Shown one piece after another: positions 12,202 through 56,142 of a stretch of 64,000 nt of DNA. The stretch comes from Argentina anserina (taxonomy: Eukaryota > Streptophyta > Magnoliopsida > Rosales > Rosaceae), in NCBI RefSeq assembly GCF_933775445.1, contig NC_065873.1, forward strand, positions 16,616,001 to 16,680,000, read 5' to 3'. The translations under genes were made by a program, and so were the position numbers. Position 1 is the stretch's first letter. Each line of letters opens with the position of its first letter. The notes under the pieces are model-generated. The model made no database searches. It had not been told where the DNA came from and saw nothing but the letters and a program-made list of their open reading frames with translations.

Positions 12202-15200
12202 TAGGGGTGGACACGGGTCTATCCGGTTCGGTTTTGGACAAAACCCATAACTCAACCCAAATTTTAAATTCAGTTCGGTTCGGTTCGGTTTTTCTATTTT
12301 AGAGACTGTGACCCACAACCCAACCCAACCCGTACGGTTCGGTTCGGTTCGGGTTCTTTTTCGGTTTTACCCGTATGTAAAATACGTAATATTATATATT
12401 AATTTTAAAAGTACAAAATTTAACATAAAGATGAAAAATTAATATTCTAATGATTATTTCATACCTAATTGACTTATGCCTCATCATTTAGCCCGTGAAT
12501 CTGAAAAGCTCGCCGAGGCCCGCAAGCCCGATGGGCTTTTATCCGAAAACAACACTAATATGTCATAAGGGAATACCCATTACGAAAATGCGAACACTTA
12601 AAGCCGTTTGCATATATGAAATCACCTAATTTTTGTCACCGATTGTGTGCGGTCACACAAAAAAAACTCATTTGGCAAAGCCCCGGTCAATGAGGATTTT
12701 AATATGTCAAAACGCCTTTTTTTTTACCATAAGTATGGACGGTCAATCAATATCCAAATCGGACGAAATTTTTATGGGTTCCAAAAATATATATACTGAT
12801 CACATCTGCTGGTGTTGATCGACCATATTTCAAACTGAAGTTATCGATTGCCGAAGTGTCCACTAATGTATCATACATTTATATTAGGTTTAAAATAAAA
12901 CTATCGCATTATGAAGCGACTATATGAAGGAAACTTATAGGGATCGATCGACACCATCCGATGTGATCGGTATATATATTTAGTAACCCTATAAAAATTT
13001 CATCCAATTCGGACATCATTTGACCGTCGGAATTTTCGGTACATCGAAAACACCACTATTATGCTATAAGGGAGGACATATTACAAATATGCGAAAGCCG
13101 AAAGCCGAAAGCCGTTTGCATATCTGAAATCACCTAATTTTTGTTACCTATCATGCGCGGTCGCACTAAAGAAATCTATTTGGCAAAGCCCCAGTCAATG
13201 GGGTTTCAATATGTCAAAACGCCTTTTTTTTTTGTTGACCGTAGGTACGAACGGTCAAACCATGTCCAAAATGGACGAAATTTTTACGGGGTCCCTAAAT
13301 AAATATACCAATCACATCTGCTGGTGTTGATCGAACATATTTCGAATTAGAGTTGACGATCACCTAAGGGTCAACTAATGTATCATAACCTTTATATTAG
13401 GTTTAAAATAAAACTATCGCATTACGTAGCGACTATATGAAGGAAACTTATAGGGATCGATCGACACCAGCCGATGTGATCGGTATATATATTTAGTAAC
13501 CATACAAAAATTTCATCCAATTCTAACCTCATTTAACCGTCGGAATTTTCGGTACATCGAAAACACCACTATTATGCTATAAGGGAGGGCGTATTACAAA
13601 TATGCGAACGCCGAAAGCCGTTTGCATATCTGAAATCACCTAATTTTTGTTACCTATCATGCGCGGTCGCACTAAAGAAATCTATTTGGCAAAGCCCCGG
13701 TCAATGGGGTTTCAATATGTCAAAACGCTTTTTTTTGTTGACCATATGTACGAACGGTCAAACCATGTCCAAAATGGACAAAATTTTTACGGGGTCCCTA
13801 AATAAATATACCAATCACATCTGCTGGTGTTGATCGACCATATTTCGAATTAGAGTTGACGATCACCTAAGGGTAAACTAATGTATCATAACCTTTATAT
13901 TAGGTTTAAAATAAAACTATCGCATTATGAAGCGACTATATGAAGGAAACTTATAGGGATCGATCGACACCAGCCGATGTGATCGGTATATATATTTAGT
14001 AACCCTACAAAAATTTCATCCAATTCTGACCTCATTTGACCGTCGGAATTTTCGGTACATCGAAAACACCACTATTATGCTATAAGGGAGGGCGTATTAC
14101 AAATATGCGAACGCCGAAAGCCGTTTGCATATCTGAAATCACCTAATTTGTGTTACCTATCATGCGCGGTCGCACTAAAGAAATCTATTTGGCAAAGCCC
14201 CGGTCCATGGGGTTTCAATATGTCAAAACGCCTCTTTTTTTTATTGACCATAGGTACGAACGGTCAAACCATGTCCAAAATGGACGAAATTTTTACGGGG
14301 TCCCTAAATAAATATACCAATCACATCTGCTGGTGTCGATCGACCATATGTCGAATTAGAGCTGACGATCACCTAAGTGTCAACTAATGTATCATAACCT
14401 TTATATTAGGTTTAAAATAAAACTATTGCATTATGAAGCGACTATATGAAGGAAACTTATAGGAATCGATCGACATCGGCCGATGTGATCGGTATATATA
14501 TTTAGTAACCCTATAAAAATTTCATCCAATTCGGACCTCATTTGACCGTCGGAATTTTCGGTACATCGAAAACACTACTATTATGCTATAAGGGAGGGCA
14601 TATTACAAATATGCGAACGCCGAAAGCCGTTTGCATATCTGAAATCACCTAATTTTTGTTACCTATCATGCGCAGTCGCACTAAAGAAATCTATTTGGCA
14701 AAACCCCGGTCAATGGAGTTTCAATATGTCAAAACACATTTTTTTTCGTTGACCATAGGTACGAACGGTCAAACCATGTCCAAAATGGACGAAATTTTTA
14801 CGGGGTCCCTAAATAAATATACCAATCACATCTGCTGGTGTCGATCGACCATATGTCGAATTAGAGTTGACGATCACCTAAGTGTCAACTAATGTATCAT
14901 AACCTTTATATTAGGTTTAAAATAAAACTATCGCATTATGAAGCGACTATATGAAGGAAACTCATAGGGATCGATCGACACCAGCCGATGTGATCGGTAT
15001 ATATATTTAGTAACCCTATAAAAATTTCATCCAATTCGGACCTCATTTGACCGTCGGAATTTTCGGTACATCGAAAACACCACTATTATGCTATAAGGGA
15101 GGACATATTACAAATATGTGAACGCCGAAAGTCGTTTGCATATCTGAAATCACCTAATTTTTGTTACCTATCATGCGCGGTCGCACTAAAGAAATCTATT

Positions 15201-15798
15201 TGGCAAAGCCCCGATCAATGGGCTTCAATATGTCAAAACACATTTTTTTGTTGTTGACCATAGGTACGAACGGTCAAACCATGTCCAAAATGGACCAATT
15301 TTTTACGGGGTCCCTAAATAAATATACCAATCAAATCTGCTGGTGTCGATCGACCATATTTCGAATTAGAGTTGACGATCACCTAACTGTCAACTAATGT
15401 ATCATAACCTTTATATTAAGTTTAAAATAAAACTATCGCATTATGAAAGAAGCAAGACGGCTAAATAATGCGCCTCTTATACATTAGGTCAATTAGGTTA
15501 GAAATTAGGTGCGGTTGTGAGGTCGACTACACTATTTTTTTTATTAAAAAAATAATAATAATATAAAATTATAAATATGACAAAATGATGTCGTTTTGTA
15601 ACGTTGACCATTGACTTCGGGTTGTTCGGGTCGGTTCGGTTTCTAAAGGACTGAACCCAAAACCGAACCCAAATAGAATCGGTTCGGTTCGGTTTTTTTA
15701 TTTTCGGTTCGGTTTGATTCGGATTTCAGTTTTTTCGGATTCAGTTTGAGTTCGGATCCGGTTTTTTTCCGGTTTTCGGGTCAGTTTGTCCACCCTTA
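12202..15798. mobile_element. hAT-like non-autonomous element carrying a satellite array
   Basis: The terminal inverted repeats are TAGGGGTGGACA on the left and, read inward from the right, TAAGGGTGGACA. They are flanked by a perfect 8-bp direct repeat, tttacaac (12194-12201 and 15799-15806), the duplication size of hAT transposons. The sub-terminal 150-200 bases at both ends are crowded with ggttcggttcgg words. No transposase is encoded. The interior (about 12544-15447) is a tandem array of a ~505-bp unit, so an entire satellite-like block sits inside a single transposon 3,597 bp long. Confidence 0.9.
12544..15447. repeat. Tandem array of ~505-bp unit, 5.7 copies
   Basis: Units begin near 12544, 13047, 13558, 14061, 14567 and 15072 (spacing 503-511). 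The last is partial, about 375 bp. Landmarks in each unit are cgaaaac-cactattatgc, agccgtttgcatatctgaaa, cggtcaatggggtttcaata, a T-run, tgctggtgt-gatcga, and tgatcggtatatatatttag. The first unit is the most diverged and the inner units are very similar to each other. The 78-79 residue open frames that recur at 14148, 14656 and 15161 are by-products of the repetition: they shift or close in other units and look like no known protein. Confidence 0.92.
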
Positions 15799-17064: not shown

Positions 17065-20000
17065 TGTTGGTTTCTGAATCCGTAACCCCACCTAGGATAA
17101 GGATTAGTTAAATCTTATAGTTTCCTATGTGCAGCTTACAGACTCCTACTTAGAGATAGTTGTTTGGGCCTAAAATAATACTCCGGTATTATCTAGACTA
17201 TTTAGGCTTGTGGACCGGTTATTTGGGAAAAGTATATCACAAAGCGAGATTACCTACCGTATTAGAATAGATTTAGGGGACTATCGCCGTATAGAATCTG
17301 AGTTGATTAAGGAAGGTAAATCTAAATTAACTAGGAGGTTCTTAAGACTTGATTCGCAAGAAAGAACAAGTTGCGTTCTCTATATAAGGGGGTTGAATGC
17401 ACAGAATAACACACGCAACGTCAAAAAAAACTATCGCGCAACCGCATAGTCAAAATCTCCCCATGGAGTAAAAGTCCGATTCGCTTCAGCAACCAAGTCT
17501 CCCATCGGAGCGGAGCTACCCAGATGGACGCCTCGCGCTGCATGTAGCAACAAGTCCGGTTAGCTTCGGCAATTCGAGTCAAGGCCATCGAGTCGCTAGC
17601 CTAGCTTCTAGCAAACACAAAGTCTGCACTAGTCAGCAAATCCCATTCGCGAGAGAGTCCTGCTATTAACGACACAGTATAAGCTCTGCTTTTCCCCAAG
17701 AGGTCAAAAGTAAGATCGGCCATCTACTTGAGGTGGAGTGAAAGGTACCTAGCAACTCCGGTTGTGTATAGGTCATTCAAACTTCAGCGGTTTATTAGCA
17801 ACTGCGGAGCAATCATTTGAGAAGAAGACAGTACGTGGAGCGCAATCATCATCAAATAAAGCAAGAGTTGTACCTAACTCAAAGGTACTGGCACGCTAGC
17901 AGCAACGGAGAACGAAGGGTCGAACCGTCTAGGGTTCGACACCGGGGCTTGCTGATTGTTCTCTGAGGAGGATCCGTTTTTCCAGCTCGAACATTAATGT
18001 TTGGGCCTAAAATAATACTCCGGTATTATCTAGACTATTTAGGCTCGTGGACCGGTTATTTGGGGAAAGTATATCACAAAGCGAGATTACCTACCGTATT
18101 GGAATAGATTTAGGGGACTATCGCCGTATAGAATCTGAGTTGATTAAGGAAGGTAAATCTAAATCAGCTTGGAGGTTCTCAAGACTTGATTCGCAAGAAA
18201 GAACAAGTTGTGTTCTCTATATAAGGGGGTTGAATGCACATAATAACACACGCAACGTCAAACAAACTATCGCGCAACCGCATAGTCAAAATCTCCCCAC
18301 GGAGTAAAAGTACGATTCGCTTCGGCAACCAAGTCTCCTATGGGAGCGGAGCTACCCAGATGCACGCTTCGCGCTGCATGTAGCAACAAGTCCGGTTAGC
18401 TTCGGCAATTCGAGTCAAGTCCATCGAGTCGCTAGCCTAGCTTCTAGCAAACACAAAGTCTGCACTAGTCAGCAAATCCCATTCCCGAGAGAGTCGTGCT
18501 ATTAACGACACAGTATAAGCTCTGCTTTTCCCCAAGCGGTCAAAAGTAAGATCGGCCATCTACTTGAGGTGGAGTGAAAGGTACCTAGCAACTCCGGTTG
18601 TGTATAGGTCATTCGAACTTGAGCGGTTTATCAGCAATTGCGGAGCAATCGTTTGAGAAGAAGACAGTACGTGGAGCGCAATCATCATCAAACAAAGCAA
18701 GAGTTGTACCTAACTCAAAGGAACTGGCACGCCAGGAACAACAGAGAACGAAGGGTCGAACCGTCTAGGGTTCGACACCGGGGCTTGCTGATTGTTCTCT
18801 GAGAAGGATCCGTTTTCCCAGCTCGAACATTAATGTTTGGGCCTAAAATAATACTCCGGTATTATCTAGACTATTTAGGCTCGTGGACCGGTTATTTGGG
18901 GAAAGTATATCACAAAGCGAGATTACCTACCGTATTGGAATAGATTTAGGGGACTATCGCCGTATAGAATGTGAGTTGATTAAGGAAGGTAAATCTAAAT
19001 CAACTAGGACGTTTTCAAGACTTGATTCGCAAGAAAGAACAAGTTGTGTTCTCTATACAAGGGGGCTAAATGCACATAATAACACACGCAACGTCAAACA
19101 AACTATCGCGCAACCGCATAGTCAAAATCTCCCCACGGAGTAAAAGTTCGATTCGCTTCGGCAACCAAGTCTCCCATCGGAGCGGAGCTACCCAGATGCA
19201 CACCTCGCGCTGCATGTAGCAACAAGTCCGGTTAGCTTCGGCAATTCGAGTCAAGTCCATCGAGTCGCTAGCCTAGCTTCTAGCAAACACAAAGTCTGCA
19301 CTAGTCAGCAAGTCTCATTCGCGAGAGAGTCCTGCTATTAACGATACAGTATAAGCTCTGCTTTTCCCCAAGCGGTCAAAAGTAAGATCGGCCATCTACT
19401 TGAGGTGGAGTGAAAGGTACCTAGCAACTCTGGTTGTGTATAGGTCATTCGAACTTGAGCGGTTTATCAGCAATTGCGGAGCAATCGTTTGAGAAGAAGA
19501 CAGTACGTGGAGCGCAATCATCATCAAACAAAGCAAGAGTTGTACCTAACTCAAAGGTACTGGCACGCCAGCAACAACAGAGAACGAAGGGTCGAACCCG
19601 TCTAGGGTTCGACACCGGGGCTTGCTGATTGTTCTCTGAGGAGGATCCGTTTTCCCAGCTCGAACATTAATGTTTGGGCCTAAAATAATACTCCGGTATT
19701 ATCTAGACTATTTAGGCTCGTGGACCGGTTATTTGGGAAAAGTATATCACAAAGCGAGATTACCTACCGTATTGGAATAGATTTAGGGGACTATCGCCGT
19801 ATAGAATCTGAGTTGATTAAGGAAGAGAAATCTAAATCAACTAAGAGATTCTCAAGACTTGATTCGCAAGAAAGAACAAGTTGTGTTCTCTATATAAGGG
19901 GGTTAAATGCACAGAATAATACACGCAACGTCAAACAAACTATCGCGCAACCGCATAGTCAAAATCTCCCCATGGAGTAAAAGTCCAATTCGCTTCGGCA

Positions 20001-22411
20001 ACCAAGTCTCCCATCGGAGCGGGGCTACCCAGATGCACGCCTCGCGCTGCATGTAACAAAAAGTCCGGTTAGCTTCGGCAATTCGAGTCAAGGCCATCGA
20101 GTCGCTAGCCTAGCTTCTAACAAACACAAAGTCTGCACTAGTCAGCAAATCCCATTCGCGAGAGAGTCCTGCTATTAACGACACATTATAAGCTCTGCTT
20201 TTCCCCAAGCGGTCAAAAGTAAGATCGGCCATCTACTTGAGGTGGATGAAAGGTACCTAGGAACTCCGGTTGTGTATAGGTCATTCGAACTTCAGCGGTT
20301 TATCAGCAACTGCGGAGCAATCGTTTGAGAAGAAGACAGTACGTGGAGCGCAATCATCATCAAACAAAGCAAGAGTTGTACCTAACTCAAAGGTACTGGC
20401 ACACCAGCAACAAGAGAGAACGAAGGGTCGAACCGTCTAGGGTTCGACACCGGGGCTTGCTGATTGTTCTCTGAGGAGGATCCGTTTTCCCAGCTCGAAC
20501 ATTAATGTTTGGGCTTAAAATAATACTCCGGTATTATCTAGGCTATTTAGGCTCGTGGACTGGTTATTTGGGGAAAGTATATCACAAAGCGAGATTACCT
20601 ACCGTATTGGAATAGATTTAGGGGACTATCGCCGTATAGAATCTGAGTTGATTAAGGAAGGTAAATCTAAATCAACTAGGACGTTTTCAAGACTTGATTC
20701 GCAAGAAAGAACAAGTTGTGTTGTCTATAGAAGGGGGTTGAATGCACAGAATAACACACGCAACGTCAAACAAACTATCGCGCAACCGCATAGTCAAAAT
20801 CTCCCCACGGAGTAAAAGTCCGATTCGCTTCGGCAACCAAGTCTCCCATCGGAGCGGAGCTACCCAGATGAACGTCTCGCGCTGCATGTAGCAACAAGTC
20901 CGGTTAGCTTCGGCAATTCGAGTCAAGTACATCGAGTCGCTAGCCTAGCTTCTAGCAAACACAAAGTGTGCACTAGTCAGCAAATCCCACTCGCGAGTGA
21001 GTCCTACTATTAACGACACAGTTTAAGCTCTGCTTTTCTCCAAGTGGTCAAAAGTAAGATCGGTCATCTACTTTAGGTGGAGTGAAAGGTACCTAGCAAC
21101 TCCGGTTGTGTATAGGTCATTCGAACTTCAGCGGTTTATCAGCAACTGCGGAGCAATCGTTTGAGAAGAAGACAGTACGTGGAGCGCAATCATCATCAAA
21201 TAAAGCAAGAGTTGTACCTAACTCAAAGGTACTGGCACGCTAGCAGCAACAGAGAACGAAGGGTCGAACCGTCTAGGGTTCGACACCGGGGCTTGCTGAT
21301 TGTTCTCTGAGGAGGATCCGTTTTCCCAGCTCGAACATTAATGTTTGGGCCTAAAATAATACTCCGGTATTATCTAGACTATTTAGGCTCGTGGACCGGT
21401 TATTTGGGGAAAGTATATCACAAAGCGAGATTACCTACCGTATTGGAATAGATTTAGGGGACTATCGCCGTATAGAATCTGAGTTGATTAAGGAAGGTAA
21501 ATCTAAATCAGCTTGGAGGTTCTCAAGACTTGATTCGCAAGAAAGAACAAGTTGTGTTCTCTATATAAGGGGGTTGAATGCACATAATAACACACGCAAC
21601 GTCAAACAAACTATCGCGCAACCGCATAGTCAAAATCTCCCCACGGAGTAAAAGTACGATTCGCTTCGGCAACCAAGTCTCCTATGGGAGCGGAGCTACC
21701 CAGATGCACGCTTCGCGCTGCATGTAGCAACAAGTCCGGTTAGCTTCGGCAATTCGAGTCAAGTCCATCGAGTCGCTAGCCTAGCTTCTAGCAAACACAA
21801 AGTCTGCACTAGTCAGCAAATCCCATTCCCGAGAGAGTCGTGCTATTAACGACACAGTATAAGCTCTGCTTTTCCCCAAGCGGTCAAAAGTAAGATCGGC
21901 CATCTACTTGAGGTGGAGTGAAAGGTACCTAGCAACTCCGGTTGTGTATAGGTCATTCGAACTTCAGCGGTTTATTAGCAACTGCGGAGCAATCGTTTGA
22001 GAAGAAGACAGTACTTGGAGCGCAATCATCATCAAACAAAGCAAGAGTTGTACCCAACTCAAAGGTACTGGCACGCCAGCAACAACAGAGAACGAAGGGT
22101 CGAACCGTCTAGGGTTCGACACCGGGACTTGCTGATTGATCTCTGAGCAGGATCCGTTTTCCCAGCTCGAACAATAGTCTCTATTTCCACAGTAAATGTT
22201 ACAGGCTCAGATCACATATGTATATAAATATGGGCATAGTGTAGATCATTTGATCAAGTCTTGAAACAGTAAACTTAGAGAGCTAGTGAGTCTTGAGTTT
22301 TGGTGAGAATTTTATGAGAATTCCTTGTATTCTTGTTTTTGTGCTCTTCTCTTTTTGTAGTGAAACCCAAGCGGTCTTCACAAGAGGGAATTCTAGGTCA
22401 AATTTCTAACA
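17065..22411 (+). mobile_element. Probable old copia-type solo LTR split by the array below
   Basis: If the 17161-22173 array and one target duplication are removed, the flanks join into a ~330-bp sequence. It starts tgttggtttctgaatcc and ends caaatttctaaca. It contains a TATA-like tatataaatatggg at about 22213 and a downstream run like ttgtattcttgtttttgtgc, which resembles the R/U5 part of a plant LTR. I could not find matching target duplications (attgc on the left, tatag on the right). The call therefore rests on the TG...CA ends and internal order only. Confidence 0.4.
17161..22173 (+). mobile_element. Concatemer of six LTR-like units joined by TTAA
   Basis: Six head-to-tail units of 831-833 bp: 17161-17993, 17998-18829, 18834-19666, 19671-20501, 20506-21337 and 21342-22173. 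Each starts TGTTTGGGCC, ends AGCTCGAACA and is separated from the next by exactly TTAA, so every junction reads CATTAATG. The whole array has one perfect 5-bp direct repeat, ATAGT, at 17156-17160 and 22174-22178. TG...CA ends and a 5-bp duplication are retroviral-type integration marks. A TATA box (ctctatataaggggg, 17381 in unit 1) lies about 220 bases into the unit; it is intact in units 1, 2, 4 and 6 and mutated in 3 and 5. A perfect 8-bp hairpin (gtcgaacc/ggttcgac) sits near the 3' end. No primer-binding site, polypurine tract or retroelement protein is present. The shared 79-86 residue open frame spans the TATA region and is probably not translated. Confidence 0.88.
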
Positions 22412-23373: not shown

Positions 23374-23430
23374 TCATGATGACCGTAACAAGTGATGGAA
23401 TTCTGCAGCTAAGTTGCGCAACTGCATAGC

Positions 23431-23560
23431 TTTGATTTTACGCAGACCAACCCTAAAGCCTTGATTTTACGCAGACCAACCCTAAAGCCTTGATTTTACG
23501 CAGACCAACCCCTAAGCTTTGATTTTACGCCCTAAAAAAAGATTTGATTTTACGCAGAGA
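23431..23560. repeat. ~29-bp tandem repeat, 3 full plus 2 partial copies
   Basis: The unit ttgattttacgcagaccaac plus cctaaagcc repeats at 23432, 23461 and 23490, then degrades into two shortened copies (23519 onwards). It lies 60 bases after the RING-H2 stop codon, so it may be transcribed as part of the 3' UTR. Confidence 0.8.
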
Positions 23561-40518: not shown

Positions 40519-42976
40519 TGTAATAACCCGATTTTTCGGGACGATTTATTAGATTATATTCTAAAGTTATAAGTTTGTGAAAAAATTATAAATCATGTTT
40601 GTTCCGATTTGTGACGTCGGAAGTCGAAAACGGAAACGTTATCGGAACGTTTATTAGAAAAATGTTACGTTTCCGCGACATGAGTATCGACTTTTATTTC
40701 ATCGCTCGTTTGCAAAAACTTCCTTCACGAAAGTTGTAGAGCTCGTCGATACGAGTTCGTGGACATGTCACGCGTTCGAATCGGACGTCGGACGTGAAAG
40801 TTATTAACGTCGGAAGTTAGTTTCCGATTTTGGAAACTAGTATAAAAATGACTTTTTTTATTAGGGTTTCCAGAGATGGAAACCCCTCTCTCTCTCCTCT
40901 CACCCGCCTCCCTCAGCTCTCTCTCCCCCGATTCGCTCTCTCTCCCTCTCTCAAAAACCCAGCTTCGGCGATCTCATCCTCCGATCGTCCGTGTCGCAAA
41001 CCGCCGGCCTAAGAAGCTTCGCGCGACCCTCCGCAGCCGACCCCGAGCTCGACACGCCGTCCCACGCCGCGCCGGAGCTCCACCAGCAACCCCAAGATTC
41101 GGTAGAAATCGTCTCCTTCCTAGGCGCATCTCCGGCGACTCCCTGGTGGTTCTAGAGCTTCGTTGAGGTAAGGGTTTTACTTGATTGATGGATTGGTGTG
41201 GTTGTTTGTCATTTTGGTGAGGTTTTGGTGGTGGATTGGAGGAGGAGGAGCGGAGGCGGAGGGGGGAGAGATACCATCGCCTTAGGCGGCGCGTGAAGGG
41301 CAGTGGAGTGGCCTAGAGATGGCGTGAGGCCGTGGGGAGGAAGAGGAGGAGGAGAGGAAGGTTTTGGGGGCGGCGGTGGCGTGCTACGCGCCGGCCTTAG
41401 GCTCGGCGCGTGTGCCCCACGCCGGCCTTAGGCTCGGCGCGTGTGCCCCACGCACTGCCACAGTGAGTGGTGCGTGAGCGCCACGCGCGGCCTGCCGGAG
41501 GTGGCGCGTGGGGTCACTTGAAATACGTACAGAAATATGTAAACCGTATGTAAACAGTATGTATACGTACGTGGATACGTAATTGATGTATATTTATACA
41601 TAAATACGTGAATAGTAAATATGTGAATAGTAACTCCGAGAACAGTAATTTCGTAAAACCAGAAATTGCTGAACAGTAACTTATTATTACTGTTTCGGTA
41701 TTTAAGGTTTACGAAACGATTCTAAATTCTTTTCTTATCTTTTCAAGGTGATCGATAAATCAAGGAAATGAATTACCTTCGGAAATTGTGGAATTACGCT
41801 CGAGTTGATAAGGTGAGTAAAATCTCACATATTTACGAATCTACCCTTGTGGAGATTCAAGATTTTGCAGAGTTTTAAAGATTGAAATACGACATGTATA
41901 TGATATAGTGGAATATATATATATTTGTATAAATGGTAAATAAGTACATATATATAGTTTGCTATATTATATATTGTTATGATTTCATTGTGAATATGTC
42001 ATTTTGATGACGAGAATTATATATTGAGCATGTCGAGTTAATTTGTACAATATGAGGTGATGATTATTGTATGTGGTTTTAACATGGAGTTTGTTAAAAC
42101 GTTTTGTCTTCGGACGAGTTTTATGTCTTCGGACGGTCTTCAGACGTGTTTTGTCTTCGGACGTGTTTTGTCTTCGGACGAGTTTTATGTCTTCGGACGG
42201 TTTTCAGACGTGTTGGCATGTCGGAACCTAGCCTTTGGCCGGGCGAAAGTTACGATACAGTTAGAGCTCTAGTCTCTCTGTCGGAGTACTGCATGTGAGG
42301 TATCAGATGGGTTATCGGCTCATGAGTACTCATATTTTTGGATGTTGGGTAGCAGAAGGTTGCCCAATATCGACAGTGTACTACGTGAGGGGTAACAGAT
42401 GTGTTCCAGCGTTCATTAGTACCCGTATTATAAATGCATTTGGGTAAACAGAGGGGTTGCCCAATTTCTCATGAGGACTTTCATTTTCATATTTTTGGGA
42501 CAACCAGACGGGCTGTCCATTGACTCATGAGTGCATTTATATTTGATGTTTTTGTGGATTTCCGTATATATTGATATGCGAGTTTTATTGTTGTTTTTAC
42601 TCATACGAGCTGTAAATCTTACCGGGTTTGTGTTTACAATCCCGGTGCACCAATTCGATGGTGTAGTGGATAACTCCGCATGTGTGGATTAGCTGGAATT
42701 GACGGACCGCTCAGAGGACTTCAAGTTATTTATTCCAGCTTGTGTGAGGATTTTGTGTGACTATCTTGTAAGGTTGTTGTGAGGAATATACATTTCTATT
42801 TGTTATAATGTCGAATTATAATTTGGTTTGTAATAATCGGTTTGACTGAGTTGTATTTTGAACTCAGAGATGATCCGCTGTAGCATTTAAAATGATTTCG
42901 ATCCATTGAGATTGTTTTAGTGTTTTGCATGACTTCAAAATTTGAGTTTTATGCTTGAAATTTCGGGGTCGTGACA
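40519..42976 (+). repeat. 5' LTR of the Tekay-type element (2,458 bp)
   Basis: It is longer than its 3' partner because it alone contains a GC-rich block of about 640 bp (roughly 40873-41530). In that block lies a direct duplication of a ~34-bp unit (cgccggccttaggctcggcg...) at about 41388-41455. Further in (42104-42215) is a minisatellite of 'tcttcggacg(a/t)gtttt' words. Confidence 0.9.
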
Positions 42977-42978
42977 GT

Positions 42979-42990
42979 TGGTATCAGAGC
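42979..42990 (+). other. Primer-binding site (initiator tRNA-Met)
   Basis: tggtatcagagc lies two bases after the LTR end. It is the standard complement of the 3' end of initiator tRNA-Met used by plant LTR elements. Confidence 0.9.
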
Positions 42991-45979
42991 CTAAGTGTGT
43001 ATTTGGCGATTATCAATATCATCCGGGAGCGATGATCCGACTGCAGCGGGCACCCATCACATGCTCCTCGGTATTGATATGTCGTCGGGTACGCGAGAGT
43101 GTTAGGAGCCATACCTTACGGTTTGGTCCTCTAGGGAGTATTGTGATAATACTTTGATGATTCACATTCTTCTGAAATTTCATGTTGGACCTCTTTATTC
43201 AGATTCGAGACTTCACCTGTAGTGACTAAGTGTTTCAAAGTGATGAATTTAGAAAAGGGCCGTGGACAGAGCCGAGGATGGGTGAGAGGTCGCAGCCGAG
43301 GTAGGGTTGCAGGCCGAGTCCGCTATGTGGAGAACCTTTACGAGGAGCTGCTCCACGGGCAGAACAGGATGACCCTGCTGCTGCCGTTAGAGACGACATT
43401 CGTGTGCTAAAAGTTGATTAAAGACATTAGTGGTCTGTCAATGCGTTATTTCATGGAAACCTATTTGGTGATGATTTAGTGCTCTAAGATAGAGAAGAGG
43501 ATGATAGCCATTCATTTATTGCTAGTTCGGTAGTGGAGATGTTAGGATTTATTCCTACACCTCTAGGGAACTCTTATGTGTCACTTCGCTTTTGGAATGT
43601 TCCTCGAATGTGAGACAATTTGCAAGGCTTGTCCTATTGTGATTGGAAGAAGAGAGTTCTCTGCTTATTTGATAGTGATTCCGGACCACACCTATGATGT
43701 GATCTTAGAAATTGGTTGGTTGAGGCCGCAGTACGCGGTGAATGATTGTTGTGACATGGTGGGTTCTTTCATAGACCCAGGAAACCAGAGTTTCGTATCT
43801 TTGCCTCGAGTCGGATAATGCCATGAGACCTTGAGTCTTGGCAAATGTGGAGTCTGTGGATCTGGAAGTAGCTATCACAAACATTGGTGTGATATCCGAG
43901 TATAGTGAGACGGTTCAGGAGATACTTAGTTTACCTTCTTGGAGAGTTGTCGATTCTTTATTGACGGTGTAACTGTTATAGCACCTATATCGAAGGCGCC
44001 TTACGGGATTGGGACAAAACGAGTGTAAAGAATTGAAAGCGCAGATAGATGACCTATTAGACCTATGGTTCATCAGACCTAGTGTCTCACTTGAGTTGTG
44101 CCGGTGTTATTCGTGAATAAGAACAGTGGTCTCATGCGGTTGTGTGTGGATTATAGGGAAATGATTAAGGTGACCATCAAGACTATGTATCATTTGCCTA
44201 GGATTGATGACTTGTGTGATATGTCCTTAAAGTGGTAATACAATTATTGAATTGAGATTCACATTTTGTCGTCGTGGCATTCCAACTTGTTTTGGTTCGG
44301 CCATAGACAATTGATGTTACACATTGTTCTTGGCTGAGCAAGAAATCTAAGGTGATGGAGAAATCTCAACATGGCGTCATGAATTAATTATTTTCTAGAT
44401 GAGCATTTAATTGAGAACGCTGATCTTTCAGGATTTAATCATTTTGGTGTTGGGGATTGGAACTTCACAATGCCACATGTCCAAATGAGACGCAATGGCG
44501 GTGAAGTAACTCTATTGAAGGTAAGGTATGAGATGACCTTAGCTTAGTGGTGTTTTAATGAATTTTTCGTGACAAGTACCTTCCAACTGGTAAAGAAATG
44601 GTTGATGACCAAATTTTCTTTTCAAGTACAAGTGGTGTTAGTGTTGGAGACTTAGTGGCTCTTTTCCCTTTATGCATCAGATTGTTTATTGTTGGATAAG
44701 ACGATGTTGATTGAAGTGTTCAACAAGGGATAAATTTGACGATAAAAGGGTAATCAATTATATTGCTGCTTGCAAATAAGTTATTTTGGCCGAATGCGTT
44801 GGCCATGAGGGTTCTTAATGAAAGTAAAGAAACAACTGTTTAAAGTGGTGGTGTAACGATCATTTTGGGTTAGTTTTGAGGAGATGATGGACCCAATATC
44901 GGGTTCTGTTGAAGTAATTACTAAACTTATTAGTACTAAAACGGTGGGGGAAACCAATACTTTAGATGATGCCACTGAGGCATTTGTGTGGGACCGTATG
45001 TCATGCATTTGAGGCATGTATGAACCAGGGGGTAAAGTATATCTCAGTTGTGGTCATGATGGATTTTGCGCTGTAAAGTTCACCTAATTTTCACGTTCCA
45101 CCGTTGGGAGATAAATACCTTCTTTGTCTGACCCGTAAATTGTGGCATACCACTCATGAAGACAACATGCTATAATTAATTTTCGACAGTAAGTTTTGGT
45201 GAGGGTGGTAGGATGCGTGATGCGTCACTCTTGTGGTGGCGGTAGAGGTTCTCTACTGCCTTGTGTGTATATTAGTTGATTCTTTGGTGAACTGTTTGAG
45301 AGTAATTCTTTGTCCAAGGTGGTGTTCTGTGGTGGTTGTGAACTTAATGAGTTAAGACTTCTTTATCGTGTTGCCGATACAAATATGGTACTTGGGTGGG
45401 TATCATGCACGACAACTTTTTATGGTTATAATAAGATGATCATGAACGGAGATTGTTTTGTGGTTTGAAAGGAATGGTAGGTTCATGGTTCTAGCGATGG
45501 GTTGAGGTGAAGTCATAACGGTAATGATGTGGATAAAAGTACGATTTCCTTGAAAACCGATGTGTGTTATGCAAGTAGTAGGCATGTGTTAAACATTGAT
45601 TTTGACTCGTGTTAGATGTCGAGAATTTTTTACCATGCTTAGTGGTGGGGGCAAGCTCATGACGCGAGAATTGTCTGATAACCGCAAGGGAGTGGTGAAT
45701 TAGACAAAGGGGTATGTTGACGTCTCTACCGAGAACATCATTATAGTTTGGTGACTCACATGTGGCTGTTAATGTTAGAACACGTGACAAATTGTCTGTT
45801 TGGAAGAAATTTGAGGCAATGGAGGATATGCTGAGAGCTTATATGCTGGATATTAAAGATAGCTGGGAAGATCATTTGAGGATCGATTGAGTTGCTTACA
45901 ACAACAGTTACCATTCTAGCATTGACATGACACCTTTGAGATTCTTGAGAAGGTGGGAAAACCAGCATATTGACTAGCC

Positions 45980-46264
45980 TTGCCTACTAGCCTGTCGGAC
46001 GTTCACAACGTCTTCTACATTTCCATGTTGAGGAAGTATGAATCTGATGAGTCGCATGTGTTTGATCATAGCACCATTGAGGTGAAGAAAAATGCCACCT
46101 TTGTTATTGAGCCGGTTCGTATTCTGGATAGATCCACAAAGAAGCTTCGTAGGAAAGAAGTATACCTAGTGAAGGTATTGTGGAGCCATCATGATGAGGG
46201 TGATGTATCTTGGGAGCTAGAGTCGGATATGAAGTCAAGATATCCACAATTGTTTGTTGTGTGA
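45980..46264 (+). pseudogene. C-terminal polyprotein remnant (integrase tail/chromodomain-like)
   Basis: An open stretch of 94 codons reads LSDVHNVFYISMLRKYESDE, then IEPVRILDRSTKKLRRKEVY and VLWSHHDEGDVSWELESDMK. This is the C-terminal end of Tekay/Del-type pol polyproteins, where a chromodomain-like fold follows the integrase. The normal upstream pol frame is destroyed by stops and frameshifts, so this is a relic. The TGA at 46262-46264 precedes the polypurine tract. Confidence 0.8.
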
Positions 46265-46304
46265 ACTTGAATTTCGGGACGAAATTCTTTTAAGGGGGGT
46301 AGAA

Positions 46305-47026
46305 TGTAATAACCCGATTTTTCGAGACGATTTATTAGATTATATTATAAAGTTATAAGTCTGTGAAAAAAATTATAAATCGTGTTTGTTCCTCTTTGTG
46401 ACGTCAGAAGTCGAAAACGGAAACGTTATCGGAACGTTTATTAGAAAAACGTTACGTTTCCGCGACGTGAGTACTGACTTTTATTTCGTCGCTCGTTTGC
46501 GAAAACTTCCTTCACGAAAGTTGTAGAGCTCGTCGATACGAGTTCGTGGACATGTCAGGCGTTCGAATCGGACGTCGGACATGAAAGTTATTAACGTCGA
46601 AAGTTAGTTTCCGATTTTGGAAACTATTATAAAAATGACTTTTTTTATTAGGGTTTACAGAAATACATAAACAGTATTATACGTACGTGGATACGTAATT
46701 GATGTGTATTTATACATAAATACATGAATAGTAAATATGTGAATAGTAACTCCGAGAACAGTAATTTCGTAAAACCAGAAATTGCTGAACAATAACTTAT
46801 TATTACTGTTTCGATATTTAAGGTTTACGAAATGATTCTAAATTTTTTTCTTATCTTTTCAAGGTGATCGATAAATCAAGGAAATGAATTACCTTCGGAA
46901 ATTGTGAAATTACGCTCGAGTTGATAAGGTGAGTAAAATCTCACATATTTACGAATCTACCCTTGCGGAGATTCAAGATTTTGCAGTTTTAAAGATTGAA
47001 ATACGACATGTATATGCTATAGTGGA

Positions 47027-47058
<32 letters not shown>

Positions 47059-48121
47059 ATAAATGGTAAATAAGTACATATATATATATATAGTTTGCTA
47101 TATTATATACTGTTATGATTTCATTGTGAATATGTCATTTTGATGACGAGAATTATATATTGAGCATGTCGAGTTAATTTGTACAATATGAGGTGATGAT
47201 TATTGTATGTGGTTTTAACATGGAGTTTGTTAAAACTTTTTGTCTTCGGATGAGTTTTATGTCTTCAGACGTGTTTTGTCTTCGGACGAGTTTTGTCTTC
47301 GGACGAGTTTTGTCTTCGGACGAGTTTTATGTCTTCAGACGTGTTTTGTCTTCGGACGTGTTGGCATGTCGGAACCTACCTTTTGGCCGGGCGAAAGTTA
47401 CGATACAGTTAGAGCTCTAGTCTGTCTACCGGAGTACTGCATGTGAGGTATCAGATGGGTTATCGGCTCATGAGTACTCATATTTTTGGATGTTGGGTAG
47501 CAAAAGGTTGCCCAATATCGGCGGTGTACTACGTGAGGGGTAACATATGTGTACCAACGTTCATTAGTATCCGTATTATAAATGCATTTGGGTAAACAGA
47601 GTTGCCTAATTTCTCATGAGGACTTTCATTTTCATATTTTTGGGACAACCAGATGGGCTGTCCATTGACTCATTAGTGCATTTATATTTGATGTTTTTGT
47701 GGATTTCAGTATATATTGATATGCGAGTTTTATTGTTGTTTTTACTCATACGAGCTGTAAAGCTTACCGGGTTTGTGTTTACAATTCCGGTGCACCAATT
47801 CGATGGTGTAGTGGATAACTCCGCAAGTGTGGATTAGCTGGAATTGACGGACCGCTCAGAGGACTTGAAGTTATTTATTTCAGCTTGTGTGAGGATTTTG
47901 TGTGACTATCTTGTGAGGTTGTTGTGAGGATTATACATTTCCATTTGTTATAATATCGAATTATAATTTGGTTTGTAATAATCGGTTTGACTGAGTTGTA
48001 TTTTAAACTCAGAGATGATCCCCTATGGTATTTAAAATGATTTCGATCCATTGAGATTGTTTTAGTGTTTTTCATGAATTCGAAATTTAAGTTTCATATT
48101 TGAAATTTCGGGATCGTGACA
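46305..48121 (+). repeat. 3' LTR of the Tekay-type element (1,817 bp)
   Basis: Aligns with the 5' LTR from end to end except for the missing ~640-bp block: the sequence passes directly from tttttattagggttt to acagaaatacataaac. About a dozen differences occur in the first ~200 bases, mostly transitions, so the two copies have aged together. It adds a short tail of unrelated codons to the truncated F-box frame. Confidence 0.9.
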
Positions 48122-49795: not shown

Positions 49796-50469
49796 TGTTG
49801 GGGAATGCGGAAAAATGAATTGTCGAATAGAAATCAAAATAACTCACAACCACAAGCGAAAAATATAAATGATAGAGAACACTTGAATTTAACGTGGTTC
49901 GGCAAAGTGCCTACGTCCACGGGTAGCAACAATAAAGAACCTCCACTATACGAAGAAATGTTATACCGAGAGAAACACTACTTCAAGACTCACACTTGAA
50001 GGGATACACTCTCACACTTTATTTTGCTACACACACAAAACTCTCTACTCTCTATCTCTCACTCTTGATCACACACAAGATGCTCTCTCCCTTATTGTTC
50101 TTATATGTTTATTGCACCATTTCTCATGCCTTTATATAGGCAAACATCTTTATGCAATTCATGCATTTGCATGTAACATGCATTAAAGCAAAGTTAATAT
50201 TCTTCCTTGATTCATGCTCAATATTGGCATGCTCATCAATGCATTCTTCTTTTTTTGTCAAACAAATCAGCCACCTACCACCATAAGGTTGTAGATTTGT
50301 TTCTTACATTCAACAAAGGTTGCTCCAAGTTTCAACAAAGGTTACTCTAAGTTTCAACAAAATCAACTCCATCAATTAATGGGTCACCAAAGCAATAGGT
50401 GTGTTTTATTTACTCATGTGAATATCACATAGTTTTCTCACCTCCATTAAGGAGGGATTGACTCTATCA
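49796..50469 (-). repeat. 3' LTR of the Tork-type element
   Basis: 674 bp. It shares long identical runs (aacgtggttcggcaaagtgc, gggtagcaacaataaagaac) with the split 5' LTR at 56143-56780, but differs by small indels and substitutions. Confidence 0.9.
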
Positions 50470-50485
50470 ATCTTCCCCTCCCGAC

Positions 50486-53400
50486 TTAGATGGAGGGATG
50501 CGTCATTCCAGACGCGCTTCTGCAGAACTTGAACTTCTCATTCGGTAGAGACTTCGTCATCATATCCGAACTGTTCTTGTCTGTATGAATTTTCTTCAGT
50601 AGCATTTCCTTAGCTTCCAACACATCACGTATCCAGTGATACCTCACATCAATGTGCTTTGACCTCGAGTGAAAACTCAAATTTATGCTCAAGTGAATCA
50701 CGCTTTGACTATCACAATACAAGAGAAACTCTTGTTGTGTATGACCCAGTTCCTGTAGAAATCTCTTCAACCATATCTACATCTGTGTAGCCAACTAGTT
50801 TAGACTTGCCACTTCCAAATCATAGACTCCTCTTTGAAGTTCCTCGGAAGTATCTCATAATCCACTTGACAGCATTCCAGTACTCTTTGCCTAGATTAGA
50901 TAATAATCTGTTAACAACACTAACTGCATGTGTTATGTCTGGTCTAGTACAAACCATCGCGTACATCAAGCTCCGTACTGCTGAAGCATATGACATTGTT
51001 GTCATTTATTCCTCCTCCTTCTGACTCGTATGACTCTGCTTTGAACTTAGCTTCATGTGACTAGCAAGTGGAGTAGCAACTGGTTTTGCTTTCTCCATAT
51101 GGAAACGCTCTAGTACATTCTCAATGTACTTTTCTTGTGATAACCACAATTTCTTGTTCCCACGATCACGGGCAATCTCCATGCCCAAAATCTGTTTGGC
51201 TGGTCTCAAATTCTTCATATCAAAAAACTTTGATAAATCTGTCTTTAACTGCTGAATCATAGCAGTAGCTTTATCAACAATTAACATATCATCTACATAA
51301 AGTAGTAAGATGATAAAATTACCTCCAGCGGGTTATTGAATATAAACACACGGATCTGCTGACGTTCTCTTATACCCATGACTCACCATGAAAGAGTCAA
51401 ACTTCTTATACCATTGCTTGGTGCTTGCTTCAATCTATACATGTTGTTCTTCAACTTGCAAACCATATGCTCTTTTCCATTAACTTCGAAGCCTTCTGGT
51501 TGCTCCATATATATTTCTTCATCTAAATCACCATGAAAAAATACAGTTTTCACGTCCATCTGCTCCACCTTTAGATCCATGCTCGCAGCCATGCCCAAAA
51601 TGACTCTAATCAAAGTCATCTTGACAACAGGTGAGAAAATCTCATCAAAATCAATTCATTTTTTCTGGCTGAATCCTTTGACAACTAAGTGAGCCTTGAA
51701 CTTTGTTAGTTTCTCATTCTCATCTCGCTTTAACTTGAACACCCACTTGTTCTTGAGTGTTTTTCGGCCTTTAAGAAGCTGCACCAACTCATAGGTGTCG
51801 TTCTTTAGTAAAGACTCAATCTCAGACTCCATGGCTAGTCTCCATTTGTCGTGGTCTTGATGCATCTTTGCTTCCCTGTAACTTTCAGGCTCTCCGTCAC
51901 TGGTCAAAATGATGTAATTTGCATAAGGATCATCTCCATCATTAGTCACCAAAATATATTGAGATGATGGATACTTAGTAGATGGAATCTGCCTCTTGGT
52001 GCTTCTACGAACAACTACTTGATTATTCACATGTTGCTCCCCCTAATCAAGCTCCCCTTCATCTTTGACTTCAGCATATCCCGTGTCAGGTACATTTTCA
52101 ACTCTCTCACCTTGCAGCCCAACATTGGATTCCTGCTGCAACAATGAATCATAAATGCGACTATCACTTGTTGCATTTGGTAGTACCTCTTTGTCGATAT
52201 CTGTAATAGATTGGTCTTCATGGAACACCACATCTCTGCTTCTTATGAATTTCTTCGTCTTTGACTTCCACAACCGGTAGCCAAACTCTTCTTCACCATA
52301 GCCGACAAATATGCATGGTGTCGCCTTGTCATCCAGCTTTTTCCTCTGCTCCTTGGATACAAGTGCGAATGCTTTACATCCAAATACTCTTAAATGTGAG
52401 TAGGATGCATCTTTCCCAGTCCAGACTTCATTTGGAGTCTTAAATTCCAAAGGTACACACGGTGCTCTGTTGATTAGGCAGCACGCAGTTTTCACAGCTT
52501 CTCCCAAAAATTCTTTTGATAATTTTTCCATCTTCAACATGCATCTGACTTTCTCCATAATGGTACGGTTCATCCGCTCTGCTACGCCATTATGTTGAGG
52601 GGTACCAGGAACTGTCTTCTCATGTCTGATGCCATGTTTTGCACAATAATCTCTAAATTCGTGCGCTATGTACTCTCCGCCATTATCACTACGAAGGCAC
52701 TTCAATTTTCTTCCAGTCTCCCTTTCCACCATTGCGTGGAAAATTGTAAACGTCTGGAATACCTGGTATTTGGATTTCAACAAATAAACCCAAATCTTTC
52801 GTGAAGCATTATCAATATAAGTAACAAAATACTTATGCATACCTAATGATTCTTCTTCCATCGGGCCACACACATCTGAATGTACAAGATCTAGAATATT
52901 TTCTTTCCTAGTGAAAGTCTTTGAAAAACTAATTTTCTTATGCTAACCAAATAAACAATAATCACAAGAGTCTAGTGAGTTACCTTTGACAACATGATTT
53001 AACGACCTCTTTGCCAAAAACTGCAGTCATTTCACACTCATATGGCCGAGACTTCTATTCCACAAACTTAGAGAAGATTCATCGACTGCATTCAGCTCAC
53101 TCTTGCATATATTTCCATAGGTCTTGTAGAGTGTGTAACACATTTTTCCTCTGGCAACTACAAGAGATCCATTGGTAAGCTTCCACTTTCCATCACCACC
53201 ATGATGATGAAAGCCTTGTCGATCAAGTACATCAGTTGACATAAGATTGAGACGTAGACCAGGAACATGTCTCACATATTTCAACAATAATTGACAGCCC
53301 ACATCTGTCTGTAAGAAGATATCTCCAATCCAGCAATATTGGAGTAGCTGTCGTTGTCCATCTTCACTTTACCAAAGTCACCTTCTTTGTACGTAGTGAA

Positions 53401-53682
53401 TAACTCTACGTGAGAGGTGGCATGAAACGAGACTCCGAAATCAACGATCCATTGAACTCCAGGATTATCTACTAGTAGACATTCACCTCCAAGTGACAGG
53501 AACTCACACTCATCATGAGACACCGCAATATCAACATTGTTTGTGTCCTCCTTTTGTTGATGAGTAGCATCTTCTCTCGCTTCTTTGAATCTCCGCTTCA
53601 ATTTGTTACAATTTTTCTTCATGTGGCCTGGAAGATCACAATGATGACACTTTCTGTTGAACCTTGTTCTGGATTTGCTCAT
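50486..53682 (-). pseudogene. Copia pol relic: protease, integrase, reverse transcriptase, RNase H
   Basis: Domains in transcript order. Zinc knuckle CHHCDLPGHMKKNC and protease segment QWIVDFGVSFHATS (53682-53281). Gag-pre-integrase block LWNRSLGHMS (53302-53027). Integrase core (52873-52043) with YFVTYIDNASRK, LRSDNGGEY and PGTPQHNGVAERMNR, i.e. the D,D,E residues retained. Reverse transcriptase start NKWVFKLKRDENE (52030-51656), then QMDVKTVFFHGDLDEEIYME (51619-51383) and the palm motif YVDDMLIVDK just before 51287. RNase H segments CTRPDITHAV (51005-50820) and LLYCDSQSVIHL...SKHIDVRYHWIRD (50770-50486). At least six frameshifts or stops separate the pieces. The protease motif D-S/T-G has become D-F-G, which would kill the enzyme. 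Confidence 0.9.
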
Positions 53683-53703
53683 ACTCCTTTCGTGACCTCT
53701 GTG

Positions 53704-54351
53704 TCATTTGCTCGTGCTCCTTCCTCTCATTTCCGCAATGAAGAATTGACTATTTTCTGAACTTGATGAAGAACTCCTTCTTGTTTCTTCGTTCAACATA
53801 TTATCTTTAATTTTTTCCATAGATAATACACCATTAGGAGCAGAGTTACTTACAGTGACAACAAATGTCTCCAAGCTATCTGGTAACGACCCGAGCAGCA
53901 GCAACGCTTGTAACTCGTCATCAATCTTCATGCTCATCATAGCTAATTGATTGAGTACACTTTGAAAGTTGTTGAGATGCTCGGTCACTAGAACGCCTCC
54001 CCGATACTTCATGTTGACGAGCTCTTTAATGAGAAAATCTTTCTTGACAGTAGTCTTTTTCTCAAATAAGGACTCAAGCTTCAACCAAAGCTCATGCGCG
54101 CTGGTTTCATTGGCAACATGGTGAAACACACTATCGTCCACCCATTCATGAATATGACTGATGGCTTTGCTGTTCATCTTCGTCCAAATTACTGGTGAAA
54201 TCTCACTTGGCTTGGCATCATCTCCCTCGATCGGCTCATGCAAATCTTTGCAATAGAGAATATCCTCCATTCTCGGCTTCCAGGTAATCCAGGTAGAGTG
54301 GTTGAGTCTGATTATGGTACTATGTGATCCTTCCATTCTAGCAGCTCCCAA
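53704..54351 (-). CDS. Copia gag (UBN2-type) of the Tork-type element
   Basis: An open frame of 215 codons starts 13 bases after the primer-binding site. It contains STWITWKPRMEDILYCKDLH, ELWLKLESLFEKKTTVKKDF, HLNNFQSVLNQLAMM and LLLGSLPDSLETFVV, the typical gag capsid helices of copia elements. Gag would build the virus-like particle. It ends at TAG after GRSTSK, about 20 bases before the zinc-knuckle frame reopens, so the normal continuous gag-pol frame is cut here. The UBN2-type capsid region itself is intact. Confidence 0.85.
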   Translation of the reverse strand: MGAARMEGSHSTIIRLNHSTWITWKPRMEDILYCKDLHEPIEGDDAKPSEISPVIWTKMNSKAISHIHEWVDDSVFHHVANETSAHELWLKLESLFEKKTTVKKDFLIKELVNMKYRGGVLVTEHLNNFQSVLNQLAMMSMKIDDELQALLLLGSLPDSLETFVVTVSNSAPNGVLSMEKIKDNMLNEETRRSSSSSSENSQFFIAEMRGRSTSK

Positions 54352-54400
54352 TCAGAACCAGGAGCTCTGATACCACTGTTGGGGAATGCGGAAGAATGAA

Positions 54401-56142
54401 TGATAGAGCGTTTTTTAAAACGTCTATAAAATACTCTGAAAAACATCATCGTTAGTATAGAATAAGCAAGGATCGTTCAGTCCGGGGAATCAAAAGGGCC
54501 TCAATAGTTATCATGTTATTGGGGGATTTGATTTGGATTCTAAAACTACAACTTAAAATAAATCCTAAATTACTTATATACAGTTGATCAACCACTCATC
54601 ACATAACCAAAACACGAATTCTACTCAAGAGACATATGACACGCATAGAACAACATATAGGCAGCGAATTATTTCGATTCTTTCTAAGTCCATTTCAATT
54701 CCAATTCTAATTAGAGTCCGAAGCGGTTCATCTAATCATTAAGACTTCTTATTTATTTAGAATCAACGAAGCGTTCAATCCTAAACATATGCTAAAAAGA
54801 GTTCAACATAACGAAGCGTTCTAGTTAAACAACAAAGTAGCACATAAGCACATTAAGTCGAATTGGAGACATGTAAGCAAGCATGGCGTCACTCATCTTG
54901 ATTAAGCATGCAAATTCCTAGAACTATCACAACCCTAAACAAGTATCAATAATTGAAACACGAAGCGCATATTCAATCAATGAACACTTTGGTGAATTAA
55001 ATCGCAACCCTAGGAGAACCATGGCCTTGGCTTCCTCAAGCATTGATTTAGATGTACGAATTCAAGGAATTAATTGAAATAAAACCTAAATTAATTTCGA
55101 AAATCCTACTGCCCATAGCTATTACACATGACATACACACATATTTCATGAGTTCATGCAATCAAAACATAAAACCAAAGAAGTCTGAATTTATGTTCTT
55201 CATATATGAAACCGAAAATAACATCCAATGATTCATACAATAAATTCAAAATTTGCAGAAAACCAAAAGAAAATTTACAAGTCATGGATGAATCACACAT
55301 TAGAAACCTTGAAGGATGGAGGAAGATGAATTCGGTGGTGGAAGAGGCAAGAGAATGGCACGGCAAAGATGGAGATGGATGAAGATTTTGGCTCGAATTT
55401 TTCTGGGTATTTTTGGGCAGCAATTCGGCTGTGATTGTGAGAGAATGGGGATGATGAATTGTGAGGGAGGCCATGCCTTTTATAGAGGAAGGAGGAGAGG
55501 ATGGGCTGCTAGGGTTTTGAATGGGCTGATCCATGTATTTCCTTTTTTTTCTTTTCTTTCCTTTTCGATTGAATGATGATCATCTTTGTTGGTCACATAC
55601 ATTCTCCCTTCTTCTAGACCACATGCATTCTTCAGAATTATCTCTTTGTTCTCTCCTTCCTTTTTCTTCTTTTGTTTCCTTCTTTTCTTATTTTTTCCAT
55701 TTAATGGCTGGATGAACCTTCCCTCCTTTAAGGCTGCATACTTCTTCCTTTTCATCTTATTCAGAAACTAAATTACTTCTTTCCTTTTTCTCCTTTTGTT
55801 TCCTTCTTCTCCTCTTTCTTTCCATAATTTCCAAGTCATTATCTCACATTTAATTCTGAAAATAAGGAAAGGAAATAATAAATATAAATCACATATGTTA
55901 CAGAAATATCGAATAATAAAAATCCTAACCAAACTAGGTTTTCCTAGTTCGACAAGGAATACTACTCTATAGCACTCTCGACAATTTCTGCATTTTACAC
56001 CCGTTTTAGCACCAAAAGGGAACAAACGTCACTAAAGACTCCTAACTCGACTCAATGACTCTATACTACAATAATAAGGGCTAAGTAAAGTACGAATGGA
56101 GGTAAAAACATGTTAAGAACGTCGCACAAAGTGCTCCTATCA
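54401..56142 (-). mobile_element. Solo LTR (1,742 bp) nested in the Tork-type 5' LTR
   Basis: It starts TGATAGAGCG and ends GTGCTCCTATCA, with TGATAG and CTATCA as inverted ends. It is bounded by a perfect 5-bp repeat, atgaa (54396-54400 and 56143-56147), that lies inside the Tork-type LTR. There is no primer site, polypurine tract or coding region, so it is a solo LTR left by recombination between the two LTRs of a full element. Read on the minus strand it begins tgataggagcactttgtgcg, which resembles Ty3/gypsy Tat/Ogre-type LTRs; the lineage and orientation are tentative. The 126-codon open frame at 55154-55534 is simple-sequence Ser/Pro and unlikely to be a gene. Confidence 0.85.

Follow-up and report, generated by a model that had tools for sequence, protein, structure and literature searches.

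End-joined DNA in which two long terminal repeats (LTRs) abut (2-LTR DNA) is usually regarded as a dead end. In prototype foamy virus (PFV), the complete end-to-end joint was reported to be preserved at 36 of 40 sequenced 2-LTR junctions (PMC1180852). Active plant elements are known to form 2-LTR circles (PMC10959353), and the 'LTR concatemers' reported for human immunodeficiency virus (HIV) are joined whole proviruses (PMC8577360). Tandem LTR-retrotransposons, in which LTRs and internal domains alternate and LTRs are shared, were reported from rice and other plants, with Gypsy elements being more prone to form them (PMC11899658). Here, we describe a row of six complete LTRs in a window of 64,000 nt from Argentina anserina (contig NC_065873.1, positions 16,616,001 to 16,680,000), whose units are joined by nothing but TTAA. 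The row is probably the fossil of end-joined retrotransposon complementary DNA (cDNA) that was integrated once, rather than a mobile element.

Coordinates refer to positions in the window, and C1–C7 denote contigs (24–37 Mb each) of the same assembly. All genome searches were performed in this one assembly (236.8 Mb, 146 contigs). The array spans positions 17161–22173 and consists of six head-to-tail units on the plus strand, each a complete LTR: U1 (17161–17993, 833 bp), U2 (17998–18829, 832 bp), U3 (18834–19666, 833 bp), U4 (19671–20501, 831 bp), U5 (20506–21337, 832 bp) and U6 (21342–22173, 832 bp). Each unit starts with TGTTTGGGC and ends with CTCGAACA, and identities among the 15 unit pairs range from 95.2 to 98.8%. 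The five linkers (junction 1, 17994–17997; junction 2, 18830–18833; junction 3, 19667–19670; junction 4, 20502–20505; junction 5, 21338–21341) all read TTAA, giving a period of LTR plus TTAA of 836 bp. Between the six LTRs there is TTAA alone, and the internal domains (int) that characterise a tandem LTR-retrotransposon (LTR-int-LTR-int-LTR) are absent. A perfect 5-bp duplication, ATAGT, frames the whole array with one copy on the left (17156–17160) and one on the right (22174–22178). The outer left end of U1 is TG without AA, and the outer right end of U6 is CA without TT. The initial annotation of this DNA, made from the letters alone, had placed the units (831–833 bp), the five TTAA junctions and the single ATAGT duplication correctly to the base.

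To find the source of the units, the genome was searched with U1, which yielded 45 places (a lower bound, with 40 of 290 candidates scored): the six array units and 39 external LTRs, all of which were examined with 2.5-kb flanks. Twenty of the external LTRs form ten pairs that, judged from their coordinates, bound elements of about 9.5–15.4 kb. The suggestion in the initial annotation that the units might belong to a very small LTR-like element was not borne out, as they are the LTRs of elements of this size with gag and pol domains. In nine of the ten left LTRs of the pairs, the terminal CA is followed by TT and then by a primer-binding site (PBS), TG(G/A)CACGCC; all ten right LTRs are directly preceded by a G-rich polypurine tract (PPT) and then AA. 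The tenth left LTR (L014) is three bases short at its end and is followed by non-PBS sequence. It is the left LTR (L014, 2501–3329) of the pair at C6:6160139–6174939, whose element is broken at the LTR-PBS border and whose outer 5-bp repeat (AATGG/AATAG) has one mismatch. The remaining 19 external LTRs have a PBS beside them in two cases, a PPT in seven and neither in ten.

The 18-nt PBS of one element (L032) complements the 3' terminus of a tRNA-Arg(tct) gene with CCA added. Three such transfer RNA (tRNA) genes were found; the gene end given by ARAGORN falls on the expected base in one (L061) and one base later in the other two (L062 and L063). A domain scan located gag 3' of the 5' LTR in L032 (one element), and an element on C7 carries a protease-like stretch (E 1.8e-5, under the Pfam cut-off) followed by reverse transcriptase and RNase H (L060) and, after these, an integrase (L042) for which Ty3 was the best match among solved structures. 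The source family therefore combines TG...CA ends, a tRNA-complementary PBS and a PPT, as LTR-retrotransposons do, with the Ty3/Gypsy order of gag, protease, reverse transcriptase-RNase H and integrase (gag from L032, the rest from the C7 element), and on these features it is classified as a Ty3/Gypsy LTR-retrotransposon. One frame of L060 has an RNase H-like domain (RVT_3) at 444–562, after RT_RNaseH at 293–397. A second RNase H after the Gypsy one is a hallmark of the Tat lineage (Ogre/Retand-like), to which the source element may belong. The C7 element also has, in its 5' portion (L041, 3292–5298), an open frame of 668 aa that matches no Pfam family.

The position of these priming sites predicts the ends of the cDNA. 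Since the 18-nt PBS complements the 3' end of tRNA-Arg(tct) plus CCA, the TT lies outside the PBS, so that minus-strand synthesis should begin just ahead of TT and give a cDNA terminus of CA-TT. Likewise, the position of the PPT implies that the plus strand should start after it, leaving AA-TG. Joined end to end, two such unprocessed ends give TT + AA = TTAA, and CATTAATG is therefore the predicted junction. All five junctions of the array correspond to TT (as before the PBS) plus AA (as after the PPT), so that the joint retains exactly the bases that integrase removes, as in a 2-LTR junction. The TTAA of junction 1 is the centre of a perfect 12-bp palindrome, AACATTAATGTT. When the chromosomal outer ends of the family were counted by eye, AA preceded TG at none of 22 left ends and TT followed CA at one of 27 right ends (L046). 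The reading of the junctions as joined, unprocessed cDNA ends, put forward in the initial annotation, is thus upheld by nine of ten left LTRs (CA-TT-PBS) and ten of ten right LTRs (PPT-AA), and the possibility it had raised against itself, that TTAA might be part of the unit, does not agree with the outer ends. The five identical, loss-free and same-direction joins are best read as one end-joining event that was copied, not as five events, and the join most likely happened on unintegrated cDNA.

Other sources of a TTAA linker were considered. A transposon with a TTAA target was ruled out, since the duplicated target reads ATAGT and the array is built of LTRs. Auto-integration was ruled out by reasoning, as this process would create 5-bp duplications rather than TTAA linkers. 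A coincidental deletion, in which a chance break removed all that lies between TT and AA from an ordinary element and the product was then tandemly duplicated, is compatible with TT and AA being the first and last internal bases, but both breaks would by reasoning need to hit exactly the positions of the cDNA ends, and we regard this course of events as very improbable.

The insertion site was compared with the rest of the assembly. The upstream flank (261 bp) matches C2:14084123–14084399 at 70% identity and the downstream flank (327 bp) matches C2:14084395–14084659 at 85%. The two matches leave no gap at the insertion point and overlap by five bases, because both flank queries include a copy of the duplication. 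When joined, the flanks are 77% identical to the C2 locus over 582 columns (71 of them gap columns), and the locus contains ATGGT once where the window has ATAGT twice. This locus (L054, C2:14.08 Mb) is a diverged duplicate of the target region of the array, about 77% identical and without the insertion, and the comparison supports the view that the array arrived as one block insertion at this point. Outer 5-base repeats are also found in the family at large: they are identical in six of the ten LTR pairs and differ by one mismatch in the other four, and the ten solo-like LTRs comprise five with identical repeats, four with a single mismatch and one with two mismatches. The array thus shows trimmed outer ends and a 5-bp duplication as in its family, as expected of integrase-mediated insertion, and the single insertion with a 5-bp duplication that had been noted at the outset is now backed by ATAGT on both sides and a paralogous empty site.

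No further locus with this structure was found. A search of the whole assembly with the junction 22-mer, allowing up to three mismatches, returned five forward and no reverse matches, none of them outside this array; the control, which used the reversed pattern, yielded 90 and 69 matches and is no measure of chance. A second search for an LTR end, 0–30 free bases and an LTR start, with exact ends, found only the same five joints in the whole assembly (control, 0 and 0). Both searches would miss strongly decayed copies. A mobile LTR-only element would be expected to have further copies of the same architecture, and only one locus was found; the proposal of a novel element architecture, taken as a mobile kind, therefore found no support in either search. 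That the row is an artefact of assembly is unlikely, to the point of being almost negligible: all six units have substitutions of their own (3–17 singletons per unit), the duplication at the array ends is perfect and an empty paralogous site exists. The unit count itself is that of the assembly.

The variation among the units was used to assess their parentage; the singleton and shared-allele counts exclude sites at which a unit has a gap. Among the 468 differences between units, summed over the 15 pairs, 122 (26%) involve two alleles that are each present in two or more external LTRs. The ten LTR pairs, whose members were identical at the outset, give 78 of 293 (27%), and 200 random pairs of external insertions give 56% on average. 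An origin of the units from several source elements is disfavoured by this comparison, as their differences are like those of LTR pairs and unlike those of random copies. The same picture was obtained at 77 standing polymorphic sites, defined by a minor allele in at least three of 29 independent external insertions (a set that excludes the right LTR of each of the ten pairs). The array segregates at eight of these sites and single LTR pairs at 1–7, compared with 57.8 on average for random sixes of the 29 insertions (2000 draws, minimum 37) and 35 for six hand-chosen near relatives; with stricter site cut-offs, the array segregates at 5 of 56, 2 of 40 and 1 of 31 sites. G is found at position 402 in all six units and A in all 39 external LTRs. 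In their variation, the units resemble copies of a single parental sequence, by a test that treats one cDNA and several cDNAs of one parental copy alike.

The mean divergence between units is 3.75%, compared with 1.9–4.7% for the ten LTR pairs. At plant substitution rates of 0.7–1.3e-8 per site and year, this gives a rough age of about 1.5–2.8 million years. Since the units are as diverged as LTR pairs, the row is old and probably grew early. Thirteen of the 15 unit pairs differ at 27 positions or more, the exceptions being U2–U6 (10) and U2–U3 (22), and the end branches of the units measure 0.016–0.025, except for U2 and U6. Growth was simulated with a simple model without conversion, scoring the runs with at least 13 such pairs. 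With a start from one or from two units, respectively, even growth over the whole life of the row reached this number in 3.3% and 10.7% of runs, growth in the first half in 23% and 35%, and growth in the first 30% in 47% and 59%, whereas six units from the start did so in about 82–84%. Lifelong slow growth from one unit is disfavoured by the simulation (P=0.033), and early growth is favoured, not proven.

U2 and U6 show no differences over aligned positions 1–623 and ten in the last 209, so that U6 has a front identical to that of U2 and a tail of its own. The two units later exchanged about 623 bp, the sole firm exchange event and one that agrees with the later exchange between units envisaged in the initial annotation. 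Other derived alleles, present in none of the 39 external LTRs, group the units into conflicting pairs (U3–U5, U3–U4, U1–U4, U2–U3 and U1–U5), and these smaller shared tracts may represent repeat mutation. Only the U2–U6 event is considered firm because an order (permutation) test for mosaicism beyond the U2–U6 block, at 20 informative sites, was not significant (P=0.11, 0.25).

The proposed history takes its direct support from the match to the predicted junction, the single block insertion, the one-parent-like variation, the LTR-pair-like divergence and the U2–U6 exchange. The cDNA of a Ty3/Gypsy element of about 14 kb would have carried unprocessed AA-TG...CA-TT ends, and two such ends would have been linked, in the manner of a 2-LTR circle or a joined dimer, to give LTR-TTAA-LTR. 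The junction-bearing molecule would have entered the chromosome once via the integrase of the element, which would have trimmed the outermost ends alone and made the ATAGT duplication. The internal domain would have been lost by LTR-LTR recombination, and one junction would have been the source from which the 836-bp period of LTR plus TTAA was amplified in head-to-tail order, at the time of integration or soon afterwards, while the LTRs were still identical. The row would then have aged by point mutation and at least one unit-unit exchange. What we infer in this history is which enzyme made the join, that integrase was used, that the internal domain was lost, and when and how the period was multiplied.

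Several results weigh against this history. The 77-site test favours the random and near-relative sets, as these are members of the 29 insertions that define the sites, a bias of which the comparison of shared alleles (26%, 27% and 56%) is free. In 82% of 200 bootstrap trees, a branch separates the array from the other sequences, and this branch is weakly supported (79/43). Lifelong slow growth from two units is compatible with the data (P=0.107) in a model that ignores conversion, mosaicism beyond the U2–U6 block lacks significance in the order test, and the array holds no remnant of an internal domain to reveal the nature of the incoming molecule.

Another form of joining, in which six full-length cDNAs were joined, integrated as one molecule of about 80–90 kb and each later collapsed to one LTR, would explain the near-star ages of the units without early growth. 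It is nevertheless very improbable, requiring six separate collapses and five perfect same-direction joins (by reasoning, 1 in 32 if orientation were random), and no other LTR-LTR joint of the family was found in the search with exact ends and a linker of 0–30 nt.

For the multiplication of a single junction, two branches are about level. The first, which falls just short of an even chance, places it after integration: a form with one TTAA (e.g. LTR-int-LTR=LTR-int-LTR) would have integrated once, its internal domains would have been lost by LTR recombination and unequal exchange would have produced six units early. The family contains many solo-like LTRs (in 10 of its 29 independent insertions, the LTR is flanked by neither PBS nor PPT), the U2–U6 identity over 623 aligned positions with ten differences in the last 209 is in keeping with exchange, and repeats that are identical exchange most readily while they are young, from which deep divergence would be predicted. 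This branch requires a loss of internal domains of which no remnant is left, and it performs best if most units arose early (from two units, P=0.59 for the first 30%, 0.35 for the first half and 0.11 for the whole life).

The other branch, which we hold tentatively as possible rather than probable, places multiplication before integration: LTR-LTR recombination in a 2-LTR circle would free a circle of LTR plus TTAA, which would be copied to a head-to-tail concatemer and integrated at about its present length, with integrase using two palindromic CATTAATG junctions or the outer ends. It agrees with five joins that are all identical and in one direction, with a unit divergence that approaches a star shape and matches LTR pairs in depth, and with a junction that is a perfect 12-bp palindrome; the integrases of PFV and HIV-1 are reported to cleave palindromic LTR-LTR junctions (PMC1180852, PMC1905944). 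On the other hand, no second such locus was found in the assembly, there was no report of replicating LTR-only circles among the 15 best-ranked of 453 literature matches, and we know of no plant element in which integrase cleaves at an LTR-LTR junction. The specific version in which a circle or concatemer of LTR plus scar was multiplied extrachromosomally and integrated by the integrase of the element cutting the palindromic junction, making 2-LTR-junction DNA an integration precursor in a plant, is doubtful. Of the concatemer originally proposed, the joined cDNA ends and the single insertion thus stand, whereas its formation already before integration does not follow, as early unequal exchange after integration fits equally.

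Further repeats were observed elsewhere in the window. A second tandem array of about six units of ~505 bp lies at 12544–15544, 1.6 kb upstream of the LTR array, and is flanked on both sides by CGGTTCGGTT-rich stretches. When this array was considered as a candidate sister case of the LTR row, its units were seen to occur as short tandems at many places in the genome (at least 448 matches), and it is probably a dispersed element with internal tandem repeats. A long, hairpin-forming inverted repeat at 1510–2586 (arms of ~510 bp, 95–97% complementary, 59-nt centre) is possibly a small-RNA source or a fold-back element. Direct repeats at 40580–47900 (5.1–5.8 kb apart, 94–97% identity, GTCTTCGGACG tandem motifs in both copies) probably represent another LTR element, and those at 49814–56672 (6.3 kb apart, 89–95% identity) probably a further one. 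A 29-bp tandem repeat (3.6 copies, 94% match) is located at 23428–23530.

At this locus, DNA with a 2-LTR junction lies in a chromosome between marks that resemble those left by integrase. The locus points to a path by which a retrotransposon could become a short satellite-like array and provides a testable case for whether junction-bearing DNA can integrate. It also calls for caution, as LTR-LTR junction reads, taken as a sign of active elements, can be chromosomal; a study that used such reads as a sign of activity included a genomic-DNA control (PMC10959353). Among the matches listed from the open-access literature, with most subscription papers outside this scope, no integrated LTR-only array with a 2-LTR junction was found.

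Like the junctions of 2-LTR circles of retroviruses and LTR-retrotransposons, those of the array connect LTR to LTR via unprocessed terminal bases and are palindromic; unlike in a circle, they are fixed in a chromosome, five in a row and without an internal domain. Tandem LTR-retrotransposons share with the array the tandem repetition, the presumed single insertion and, in some cases, a framing 5-bp duplication, but no end-joined LTRs or LTR-only rows were noted among them in the passages considered (PMC11899658). Cassandra elements, which are terminal-repeat retrotransposons in miniature (TRIMs), are reported to form long tandem arrays of LTR elements with a proposed growth by unequal exchange; they have their own small internal domain between the LTRs (PMC7215508), whereas the linker of the array is a 4-bp scar. 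A solo LTR, finally, resembles the array in its TG...CA ends, its 5-bp duplication and its lack of an internal domain, but it is one LTR, whereas the array comprises six LTRs with five end-joining scars.

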